From a bacterium (GTDB lineage: Bacteria; Zixibacteria; MSB-5A5; WJJR01), in the NCBI GenBank assembly GCA_021813505.1, contig JAKAKI010000004.1, positions 1 through 39,082 on the forward strand: a stretch of 39,082 bases of DNA, given 5' to 3'. The position numbers and the translations under genes are program-made. Below the pieces are notes generated by a model. The model saw nothing but the letters and a program-made list of their open reading frames with translations. It was not told the origin of the DNA and did no database searches. Shown here piece by piece: positions 26,037 through 29,927 of the stretch (position 1 is the stretch's first letter; the number at the start of each line of letters is the position of its first letter).

Positions 26037-26930
26037 ATGTCGCATTTCACATGGGATCAACTCGAACCATTTCTCGTCAATTGGAGCACGCGAGCCGGTG
26101 TCGCTTTTATGCGCATCATTCTGCTTTTGATCGTCGGCTGGCTGGCTTGGCGGACGCTCCGCCGGGCGTTGCAGAAATTGGAATTGATCCTGGCGCATAC
26201 AGACGACCGGAGCATCAATGCGCAGGCGTCGGCTGAGCAACGGGCGAAAACACTTACCGGACTGTTGCGTACGATCACCTCTGTCGGACTCTGGATGCTG
26301 ATCGCGGTGATCGGTCTCGATCAACTCGGCCTGCAGATCGGTCCGATCCTCGCCGGCGCGGGGATCGCCGGGCTGGCGATCGGGTTTGGCGCCCAGTACA
26401 TCGTGCGCGATGTGATCACCGGATTCTTCATCGTGCTGGAGAACCAGCTTCGACTCGGCGACGTGGCGATCATTAATGGCACGACGGGCAAGGTTGAATC
26501 GATCACGTTTCGGGCAATTGTTCTCCGCGATGCCTCCGGCGTTGTGCATGTCTTTCCCAACGGGTCGATCAACACCCTCGCCAATATGACCATGGACTGG
26601 TCGGCCACGATGATCTCCGTCGGGATCGGCTACAATGAAAACATCGATGAAGTCATGAAAGTGATGAGGCAGACCCACGAGGAGATGATGGAGGATCCCC
26701 GGTTCGATGCTAGCTTGATCGAGCCGATCGAGGTTTTTGGCGCGGACGAGTTCGGAGATTCGGCGATCATCATGAAAGCCCGCATCAAGACCCGGCCGGG
26801 AGATCAGTGGGAGGTTGGACGCGAGTACCGGCGGCGGCTCAAACTGGAGTTCGACCGGTTGGGAATCGAGATACCGTACCCGCAACGCACAATCCACATC
26901 AAGAATGAGGGTGTAGCCCGTGCGGCCTGA
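26037..26930 (+). CDS. MscS-family mechanosensitive channel
   Basis: The 297-residue inner-membrane protein has three transmembrane segments (about 22-40, 78-97 and 104-125). The pore-lining helix and beta domain carry the family signature AGAGIAGLAIGFGAQYIVRD, then LENQLRLGD. The cytosolic vestibule domain follows (VFPNGSINTLANMT, YNENIDEVMKVM). It is a small-conductance-type channel that releases solutes on hypo-osmotic stress, closest in length and layout to the YkuT/YnaI-like subgroup. AGGAGG just upstream supports the ATG at 26037. The next gene follows in the same direction. Confidence 0.93.
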   Translation: MSHFTWDQLEPFLVNWSTRAGVAFMRIILLLIVGWLAWRTLRRALQKLELILAHTDDRSINAQASAEQRAKTLTGLLRTITSVGLWMLIAVIGLDQLGLQIGPILAGAGIAGLAIGFGAQYIVRDVITGFFIVLENQLRLGDVAIINGTTGKVESITFRAIVLRDASGVVHVFPNGSINTLANMTMDWSATMISVGIGYNENIDEVMKVMRQTHEEMMEDPRFDASLIEPIEVFGADEFGDSAIIMKARIKTRPGDQWEVGREYRRRLKLEFDRLGIEIPYPQRTIHIKNEGVARAA

Positions 26931-27016
26931 CGGCAATGAAAGCGGCTTCCGGGATCACTTTTCTATTGCGCACCGCTGAGTATTTCGCATTCTGGCTACG
27001 GGGGAGGCAACGAAAG

Positions 27017-27859
27017 ATGCCGCGCAGGGATATTGGTAAACACAAGGGAATCGCCAGGCGCATCCGGCTCCGCATGTCGGGCTCGGTACCCTTGATCTTC
27101 TCCATACTTCCCATTCTTCCCATCATTCCCATTCTCGCGTCGGCCGGCACTCCGCCTGCGCCCAGCGCCGACGCCCTCCGCTCCCAGGAGCATATCGCCC
27201 AAGTCATGCAGTGGGGCGAGTTCGCACTGTCCCACGAACGGTTCTCAGAAGCGGAAGCGCGGTTCAATGATGTTCTCCAGTTGGACTGGAACCATCCGCG
27301 TGCGTTCAGTCTTCTGCAGGAAACCCGTCAGCGGCGGACCAGGGCGCTGGTGGAATGGGAGCGTGCCGGACAGGAATCCGAATCCCGCGGCGACGTGCGG
27401 CGGGCCATGGAATACTTCGGGAAGATCGTGGCCGAGGATTCGACGCAGACCAACGCGCGTACGCGGCTGGCCAGGCTCCAGAAGCGGGACCAGGCCAACC
27501 GGTTGATTCAGTCCGGATTGTCCAAGTTTATCCTCGACGATTACTCAGCAGCGCTGCTCGATTTCGAACAGGCATTGACCATTGTGCCCACCGATACGTT
27601 GGCATCGCTGTACCGCGACCGGGCCGAGCAGAAAATGGCCGGCGGATCGAGCATGGCCGATCTGCGCGCCGACTCGGTGATGTGGGCCAAGTATTCCGAT
27701 GCGCTGAAAAAACTGCGCACCGGGGACCTGGCCGGCGCCGAGCAATTGTGGCAGGCCGTCTTGGTCAGGTATCCCGGCAACGAAGCGGTTCGGTCGAATC
27801 TCGAGCAGATCGCCCGGCGCCGGAAACAGGAACTGACGAGCGAAGATCAAACACCGTAG
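27017..27859 (+). CDS. TPR-containing exported or membrane-anchored protein
   Basis: The 280-residue protein has a basic N-terminus and a hydrophobic segment (VPLIFSILPILPIIPILASA, about 24-43) that is a signal peptide or anchor. Two blocks of TPR-like helices follow (FSEAEARFNDVLQLDWNHPRA, cited in part; RAMEYFGKIVAEDSTQ; YSAALLDFEQALTIVP; LAGAEQLWQAVL). It resembles the FCB family of tetratricopeptide proteins that bind periplasmic partners; the role is unknown. ATG 27017 is favoured because GGGGGAGG stands nine bases upstream; ATG 26936 and 27074 are alternatives. It lies between mscS and the fused kinase/phosphatase and ends 25 bases before the latter, suggesting cotranscription. Confidence 0.7.
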   Translation: MPRRDIGKHKGIARRIRLRMSGSVPLIFSILPILPIIPILASAGTPPAPSADALRSQEHIAQVMQWGEFALSHERFSEAEARFNDVLQLDWNHPRAFSLLQETRQRRTRALVEWERAGQESESRGDVRRAMEYFGKIVAEDSTQTNARTRLARLQKRDQANRLIQSGLSKFILDDYSAALLDFEQALTIVPTDTLASLYRDRAEQKMAGGSSMADLRADSVMWAKYSDALKKLRTGDLAGAEQLWQAVLVRYPGNEAVRSNLEQIARRRKQELTSEDQTP

Positions 27860-27884
27860 GCCGACCGCTTCAACTGCTCCCGCA

Positions 27885-29927
27885 ATGGCATTCTCCCGAC
27901 CGCTCATCGAACACTTCGCCGCCTTCGAGGCCCAGCAAAACCCGCTGGAGGATGTGCGCGCGTTTGTCCAGGCGGCATTGCTCGAAACCGCCCTGGAGAA
28001 GAAGGCGATTGCCGGTCTGATGCTTGCAGTCGAAGAGGCGGTGACGAACACAATCCGCCATGGGTACATGTATGGCCCCGGACGGTTACATGTGCGTATA
28101 CGGAGCACCCGCCAATGGGTGAGCCTGACCATCAGCGACAAGGGGCGTGCTTACGCGTTCGACACTGACGCCGCGCCCGACGCCCGGCAACTGGCCGAGA
28201 CCGGCCGAAAGGGCGGGTTGGGCCAGTACCTCATGCAAAAGGTGTCCGACCATGTCGAGTACCGGCGTATTGGCGATGAGAACATCCTGACGATGATCAA
28301 ACGGTTCCGGCCGTCGGCGCAATACCAGCCCCGTTCGGGGCTCCGGCGCCGGGTGATCTGGACCGGGTCACTCGCGTTAGCGATTGCGGTGCTGGCGGGC
28401 GCGATCGTCATCGAACGACAGACGACCACGAGTATTCGGAGCGAGTTTTTCGGCCAGTGGTCGCAATTCGGACGCTCCGCCGCCGCGGCCACCGGCCAGC
28501 ATTTTCTCAATGACCGTTCAGATGCCGAATTCGACCAATTGGTCGTGGGCCTGAAGTCCGCCAATCCGGGACTCGCCTACCTGATAATTCTCTCCGCCCC
28601 GCAGGCGGCACGTTCGGGCGGAGGGTTGCGGATCCGCGCGCACTCGGAGTCGCCCGAATCGGTGCATGAACTGTACACACCGCCCGACGGTGTGCCTCCC
28701 GATGAAGACGGGCGCTGGCTCGTGACGGTCAGCGGCCAGCCCGACTATCACTTCAGCCAATCCATCTCGCTCGATGGGCGGCGCGTGGGGGTTGTCGCAT
28801 GGGGAGTGCCGGAGTCACGGCTCTCCGGAATGATCCACGGCGAGCGAGTGCGTATTGCCCGCTGGTCTACGGCCATCTTCCTGGCCGGTGTGCTGTTGAT
28901 TCTCGTCGGGTCGAATTGGATAACCCGACCGATTCAGAAATTGTTAGCCTCGCTCCGCACCGCCGGAACACGCGGCATGGAAGTCGCAACGCCGACTGCG
29001 GGACCGAATGAAATTCGTGAGGTCGTGGCGGCATTCAACGATGCGACCGAGTCCGTGGCACAAAGCCATCGGCAGATGGCGGAGCGCGATGTCGCCCGGC
29101 GTGAGATGGAAGCCTCGCAACAGTTGCAGCGTGCGTTGTTGCCGAGCGAGCTTCCGCGATTGGACCAATACGAGTTCGGGGCAACCTGCCGAATGGCGCG
29201 CCAGGTCGGCGGCGACTATTACGACATCTTCGCGGTGGCTCCCGGGCAGTGGCTCGTGGTCGTGGCCGATGTCGCCGGCAAGGGATTTCCGGCAGCGCTG
29301 CTCATGACGTCGTTTCGGACTGCGACTCGGCTTCTGGCAACCACGCACACCTCACCCGCCGACTTGCTCAATGCGCTCCATCAGTTCCTCGTCATGCATC
29401 ATCCCATGGGACCCTTCGTGACCGCATGTTGCGTGCTGCTCGATACCGCAAATCATCAGATCGAGATCGCCTCGGCCGGCCACACCCCATTTTTGTATCT
29501 GAAAGCCGGAGATGGCAAGGTCACGCGACTCAATCCCAAGGGCCGCCCCATCGGAGTGTTCACCGAAAGCGAGCCGGAGGCCGGAGCGCGGCCGGAGTCG
29601 CAGCTCCTGCCTCTGGAGCCTGGCGACAGCCTCCTGTTATTCACTGATGGTGCTTCTGAGGCCCGATCTGGAGTGGGGGAGAACTACGGCTTGGGTCGGC
29701 TGGAGTCCTCGATGCTTCGCAACACCACCGCCACGGCTTCGGCGTTGGTAGACTTGGTTATCGCCGACATTGACCGCTTTACAGCAGGTTCATCGACCGG
29801 CGACGATCTAACCGTTCTTGCTCTGCGTCGGACTAAACAATCCGAGGCCAGCCGGTCCGATAGCGTCGAGCATGCGGCAGAACCGACCGAGCGGCACCTA
29901 AAGTCCCACATCGCAGCGGCTTTGTAA
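27885..29927 (+). CDS. Fused anti-sigma-type kinase and PP2C phosphatase (RsbW-like + sensor + HAMP + SpoIIE/RsbU-like)
   Basis: This 680-residue protein joins two opposing activities of partner-switch signalling. Residues about 5-142 form an HATPase_c_2 domain with N-box EEAVTNTIRHGY (Asn55), G1 box SDKGRAYAF and G2 box GGLGQYLMQKV. A transmembrane helix (157-176), an extracytoplasmic sensor domain (about 177-325), a second helix (327-345) and a HAMP-like linker (about 346-400) follow. The PP2C/SpoIIE domain (about 425-650) keeps its metal-binding acids: Asp444/Asp447 in GGDYYD, Asp462 in ADVAGKG, Asp588 in TDGASEA and Asp640/641 in GDDL. RsbW-type kinases phosphorylate STAS anti-anti-sigma factors and RsbU-type phosphatases reverse this. 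No STAS protein or sigma factor is in the window. Confidence 0.88.
   Translation: MAFSRPLIEHFAAFEAQQNPLEDVRAFVQAALLETALEKKAIAGLMLAVEEAVTNTIRHGYMYGPGRLHVRIRSTRQWVSLTISDKGRAYAFDTDAAPDARQLAETGRKGGLGQYLMQKVSDHVEYRRIGDENILTMIKRFRPSAQYQPRSGLRRRVIWTGSLALAIAVLAGAIVIERQTTTSIRSEFFGQWSQFGRSAAAATGQHFLNDRSDAEFDQLVVGLKSANPGLAYLIILSAPQAARSGGGLRIRAHSESPESVHELYTPPDGVPPDEDGRWLVTVSGQPDYHFSQSISLDGRRVGVVAWGVPESRLSGMIHGERVRIARWSTAIFLAGVLLILVGSNWITRPIQKLLASLRTAGTRGMEVATPTAGPNEIREVVAAFNDATESVAQSHRQMAERDVARREMEASQQLQRALLPSELPRLDQYEFGATCRMARQVGGDYYDIFAVAPGQWLVVVADVAGKGFPAALLMTSFRTATRLLATTHTSPADLLNALHQFLVMHHPMGPFVTACCVLLDTANHQIEIASAGHTPFLYLKAGDGKVTRLNPKGRPIGVFTESEPEAGARPESQLLPLEPGDSLLLFTDGASEARSGVGENYGLGRLESSMLRNTTATASALVDLVIADIDRFTAGSSTGDDLTVLALRRTKQSEASRSDSVEHAAEPTERHLKSHIAAAL

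Follow-up and report, generated by a model that had tools for sequence, protein, structure and literature searches.

The window analysed here is a stretch of bacterial DNA of 39,082 nucleotides, in which an open reading frame of 680 amino acids was confirmed on the forward strand at 27885-29927. The encoded protein, named KP (kinase-phosphatase), is laid out as a HATPase_c_2 domain, a transmembrane (TM) helix, a Cache-like domain, a second TM helix, a HAMP-like linker and a PP2C domain. The gene, its parts and the gene directly upstream are as follows.

26936-27859, forward strand: TPR protein gene, 25 nt upstream of KP
27885-29927, forward strand: whole KP gene, 680 aa; about 80 of the 98 relatives have an orthologue of full length
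27924-28301, forward strand: RsbW/SpoIIAB-type serine-kinase domain, aa 14-139 (Pfam PF13581)
28353-28412, forward strand: TM helix 1, aa 157-176 (hydrophobic stretch, helix in the model; two TM helices in orthologues)
28416-28859, forward strand: extracytoplasmic Cache-like sensor, aa 178-325 (weak sCache_3_2 matches in orthologues, alpha/beta fold in the model)
28866-28922, forward strand: TM helix 2, aa 328-346 (hydrophobic stretch, helix in the model)
28911-29054, forward strand: HAMP-like linker, aa 343-390 (PF00672 at 20.8 bits, below the cut-off of 25)
29055-29180, forward strand: helical linker into the phosphatase with a conserved QxxLLP motif (model helix 375-418)
29181-29831, forward strand: SpoIIE/RsbU-type PP2C phosphatase domain, aa 433-649 (PF07228; metal-site D444, D462, D588 and D641)
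29832-29924, forward strand: short low-confidence tail (pLDDT below 50) without an HTH extension

The order of HATPase, TM sensor, HAMP-like linker and SpoIIE domain, proposed in a sequence-only reading of this DNA, is borne out by Pfam, hydrophobicity and structure modelling. The kinase domain matches HATPase_c_2 (PF13581, aa 14-139) with an E value of 6.7e-23 and 81.5 bits against a cut-off of 27.4, and the phosphatase matches SpoIIE (PF07228, aa 453-649) with an E value of 1.5e-45 and 155.9 bits. The HAMP match, which falls short of the cut-off in the window protein, lies well above it in most orthologues tested, and residues E407, Q415 and L418 of the helical linker are invariant. The AlphaFold2 model of KP (mean pLDDT 76) contains a kinase-like domain and a PP2C fold, with long helices passing through the membrane around a mixed alpha/beta sensor, and Foldseek matches its PP2C part to the phosphatase structures of SpoIIE, Rv1364c, RssB and SiaA. 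Many orthologues carry a C-terminal extension of 280-430 residues with HTH domains, which is missing from the window protein.

KP has the ATP-binding N, G1 and G2 boxes, with the catalytic Glu and Asn, of an RsbW/SpoIIAB-type kinase (E51 to N55 in the N-box, D85xG87 in G1 and G110-G111-L-G113 in G2), as well as the metal-coordinating Asp set and the SpoIIE fold of a SpoIIE/RsbU-type PP2C. The kinase residues E51, N55, H59, D85, G87, G110, G111 and G113 are invariant in all 57 proteins with an N-terminal kinase and a C-terminal PP2C domain, as are G443, D444, D462, G465 and G467 of the phosphatase; D447 is kept in 56 of the 57, and all 56 relatives long enough to include them share D588, G589, D640 and D641. 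The motifs are therefore as intact as first read, and decay of the kinase domain was rejected on the invariance of its catalytic residues. In SypE of Vibrio fischeri, the kinase requires N52 (PMC3610818), to which N55 of KP appears to correspond, judging by its position in the N-box rather than by an alignment with SypE. The domains also support the proposed opposition of kinase and phosphatase around an extracytoplasmic sensor, both activities being predictions from sequence.

Full-length orthologues of KP, one copy each, are present in about 80 of the 98 genomes of the class searched, mostly draft metagenome assemblies in which orthology thresholds were set by score; the matches cover most or all of the length, and identity is 30-95% where they are full-length. 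The class was assigned to Candidatus Zixibacteria from named records. The same domain order occurs outside the class in Calditrichia, KSB1, Latescibacterota and Krumholzibacteriota, and a tblastn search of plasmids returned phosphatase-level matches and no full-length relative. The sequence-only reading regarded a HATPase C-terminal to SpoIIE as the more familiar arrangement, which agrees with the PP2C-then-kinase proteins found in clostridia, spirochaetes and others, in a scan biased towards the KP query. A finding that this exact architecture is common and already characterised had been named as what would refute that reading; the architecture is indeed common in the class, and the order of N-terminal kinase and C-terminal PP2C is known from SypE (PMC3610818), but the papers searched gave no description of the membrane version.

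The TPR gene adjoins KP in families f1 (that of the window) and f2 and in one f8 genome, and the two genes are probably co-transcribed. An MscS-like channel gene, the TPR gene and KP lie tightly spaced on one strand at 26037-29927 of the window, an order kept in most f1 genomes checked, the TPR-KP pair being kept also in f2. Within f1, KP follows the MscS-like and TPR genes and precedes hrcA-grpE-dnaK-dnaJ; a heat-shock role for KP was not adopted, because conservation of this linkage does not extend beyond f1 and f2.

That no STAS or sigma-factor gene lies nearby holds for this window, but not for most relatives, in which a STAS gene is next door. The window genome contains four STAS genes, one of which, on another contig (G000:C51:9390-10070), encodes a 227-residue protein, STAS-HTH, made up of a PF01740 STAS domain and an HTH-like C-terminal tail. 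Its structure model is closest, in the STAS domain, to the SpoIIAA-SpoIIAB complex structures (Foldseek), the matches listed covering this domain and not the tail; the tail has four confidently modelled helices and matches Pfam HTH models weakly (HTH_Tnp_Tc3_2, E 0.0013). The motif around the phosphorylatable serine, YISSAGWG or YVSSAGWG, occurs in 60 of 60 STAS proteins.

STAS-HTH orthologues, at the score-set level, occur in 81 of the 98 genomes. The sequence-only reading had suggested looking for a co-occurring STAS protein, and STAS-HTH is found together with KP in 78 genomes, with two and three genomes containing only KP or only STAS-HTH and 15 containing neither (Fisher p = 6e-13, a value that ignores shared ancestry); the 15 include every sampled member of families f3, f9, f14 and f16. 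The two genes are linked in 60 of the 78 genomes with both, STAS-HTH lying downstream of KP on the same strand every time at a distance of 78-2044 nt, and the 18 unlinked cases comprise f1, f2, f19 and scattered others on separate contigs. In three loci from Latescibacterota and Krumholzibacteriota, KP is fused to three STAS domains (three Pfam stretches, 2.3e-44), and for all nine of these cis-fused domains the STAS-HTH of the window genome is a better match than the three other STAS proteins of that genome. Orthology and linkage thus indicate STAS-HTH as the putative target of KP, which supports the earlier expectation of a target elsewhere in the genome and narrows it to one named protein. 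In each of the fused loci (L053:5941-10344, L062:5965-10101 and L068), the kinase-sensor-phosphatase-HTH protein with its three STAS domains is followed by a ParA gene, and TPR and further STAS genes come after ParA where the locus extends. Two conserved genes are present upstream of the kinase-phosphatase at about 1-5960 of L054, L055, L058 and L062, encoding a protein of ~1300 residues and, by eye, a PorV-like outer-membrane protein of ~630 residues.

The separation of the KP and STAS-HTH genes in f1, together with an orphan STAS gene at C51:33847 of the window genome, would also fit loss of the dedicated partner of KP and a shift to another STAS protein (C77, C37 or C51:33847). We consider this quite improbable: the STAS genes of C77 and C37 each lie beside kinase and phosphatase genes of their own, STAS-HTH is present in every f1 genome, with the cyclase described below wherever the contig continues, and the cis-fused STAS domains best match STAS-HTH.

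Gene order in 60 re-annotated loci is usually KP, which may carry a C-terminal HTH, then in some loci a ParA-type ATPase, then STAS-HTH and a GGDEF diguanylate cyclase, with STAS and HTH encoded as two separate ORFs in many f8 genomes. The switch-protein gene is linked to a cyclase gene in 53 of the 58 loci uncut by a contig end, the window genome included. The set is split in f1, in which STAS-HTH and the cyclase lie together on the other contig (G000:C51:9390-11668). Most other cyclases of these loci have GGDEF or GGEEF, and that of the window's genus (L178, G000:C51:10070-11668) has SGDEF in place of GGDEF and keeps the RxxD site, so its predicted activity is uncertain. No cyclase gene is adjacent in families f10 and f19 or in the Calditrichia and KSB1 loci, and the cyclase is therefore not a universal output. 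A ParA/AAA_31-type ATPase gene is located between phosphatase-HTH and STAS-HTH at L143:12395-13135 and in other f5, f6, f11, f12 and f15 loci; the ATPase could position the complex.

These neighbours bear on the anti-sigma function that the sequence-only reading implied for the kinase domain. In a classical anti-sigma circuit, the N-terminal domain would hold a sigma factor that the STAS protein frees, and this would be in keeping with the resemblance of the KP kinase domain to RsbW/SpoIIAB, with the sigma-70 family proteins of the window genome and with the ability of the fused kinase domain of HsbR to bind a sigma factor as well (PMC6482189). A search of the genome for SigB/F/G-type sigma factors found none over the cut-off, other sigma types being possible targets, and no sigma gene was recognised in the analysed operons, whose conserved neighbours are instead an HTH domain, a ParA-type ATPase and a GGDEF protein. 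The anti-sigma reading is thus not upheld, and we regard such a circuit as unlikely.

The HTH-like domains are carried on the STAS protein in f1 and on both the STAS protein and the phosphatase in f4-f6, f11, f12 and f15. The main output could be transcription, with the cyclase merely a co-transcribed neighbour. HTH domains persist from family to family, whether as fusions or on an ORF of their own, the phosphatase extensions match HTH_28/23/32 over the cut-off in Pfam, and STAS-HTH is retained without a cyclase in the loci of Calditrichia and KSB1. Against this stand the weak HTH match of the STAS tail and the weak relation between the phosphatase HTH and the STAS tail in profile comparison (36% probability over 28 columns), and DNA binding as the main output is possible but, on balance, doubtful. 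Given that weak relation, we make no claim that a single HTH domain moved between the phosphatase and the STAS protein.

The reading that we favour, and consider likely, is that KP controls how far a single, dedicated STAS protein is phosphorylated, with the cyclase as the most likely output and a possible action on DNA. The N-terminal RsbW-type domain would phosphorylate the conserved serine of YISSAGWG in STAS-HTH (G000:C51:9390-10070) and the C-terminal PP2C domain would take the phosphate off, the balance between the two shifting when an outside signal is read by the Cache-like domain and relayed by HAMP. Within Zixibacteria, the STAS protein would most likely regulate the cyclase encoded directly after it, an output suggested by gene order and by the precedents of HsbA-HsbD, SiaC-SiaD and BgrV-BgrR. 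Its HTH-like tail may, in addition, let it act on DNA, which would fit the retention of HTH domains even in the cyclase-less Calditrichia and KSB1 loci. All assignments rest on sequence and gene order: domains, motifs, co-occurrence, linkage and fusions were observed by computation, whereas the enzyme activities, the way the switch turns, its signal and any effect on cyclase or DNA are inferred.

Known systems share parts of this arrangement. SypE of V. fischeri, as described in the available text of two reports (PMC3610818, PMC8256260), resembles KP in having an N-terminal RsbW-like serine kinase, a C-terminal PP2C domain and a regulatory module in between, and its target is a STAS protein, SypA, as proposed for KP. 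The module in SypE is a central receiver domain under two-component phosphorylation control, and the same text does not describe the protein as membrane-bound, whereas KP has TM-Cache-TM-HAMP and no Pfam match to a receiver (REC) domain; that text mentions neither an HTH nor an adjacent cyclase, both of which are found in KP loci. HsbR-HsbA-HsbD of Pseudomonas aeruginosa (PMC6482189, PMC5085249) has a fused kinase and phosphatase, as in KP, and a STAS substrate and a diguanylate cyclase as an output, as proposed for the KP set. HsbR differs in its links to the sigma factors FliA and RpoS and in having a receiver instead of a membrane sensor, and KP (kinase-TM-sensor-PP2C) does not follow the receiver-PP2C-kinase order of HsbR/CrsR.

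The available text on SiaABCD of P. aeruginosa (PMC8457831, PMC7647112) describes a SiaA-type PP2C, as in KP, and control of a cyclase by a phospho-switch protein, as proposed for the KP set, all encoded in one operon; in contrast to the fused kinase and PF01740 STAS protein of the KP set, the kinase SiaB is separate and SiaC is a DUF1987 protein structurally related to STAS, and no HTH or ParA is described there. A STAS protein also controls a diguanylate cyclase in BgrSTUWV-BgrR of Sinorhizobium meliloti, as cited in PMC8457831, although there, unlike in KP, the proteins are separate. Rv1364c of Mycobacterium tuberculosis (PDB 3ke6) has an RsbU and an RsbW domain on a single chain, as KP does, but in the reverse order, phosphatase before kinase, and without the membrane Cache/HAMP arrangement. 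None of SypE, HsbR and SiaABCD combines STAS-HTH with a membrane sensor that separates kinase from phosphatase.

In the open-licence literature we found no account of the membrane version of KP, of its operon or of its combination with STAS-HTH and a cyclase, and none of partner switching in candidate phylum Zixibacteria. The loci may tentatively be seen as an undescribed class-wide switch, in which an outside signal would set cyclic-di-GMP and transcription through STAS-HTH with no sigma factor, the phosphatase itself binding DNA in many families, although we hold this broader picture to be less probable than not. For this candidate phylum, the signalling module is both defined and conserved, and names can be given to its kinase, its phosphatase, its substrate and its probable output; the natural KP-STAS, STAS-HTH and phosphatase-HTH fusions make it a good case of partner-switch rewiring from sigma factors to second messengers.

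Cross-talk is possible, because three other STAS proteins and several further RsbW-type kinases are encoded in the window genome. At G000:C37:723-2935 (L131:723-2935), a GAF-SpoIIE-type phosphatase gene is directly followed by a gene for a 288-aa RsbW-type kinase-STAS fusion, which contains a kinase and its likely substrate in one chain.
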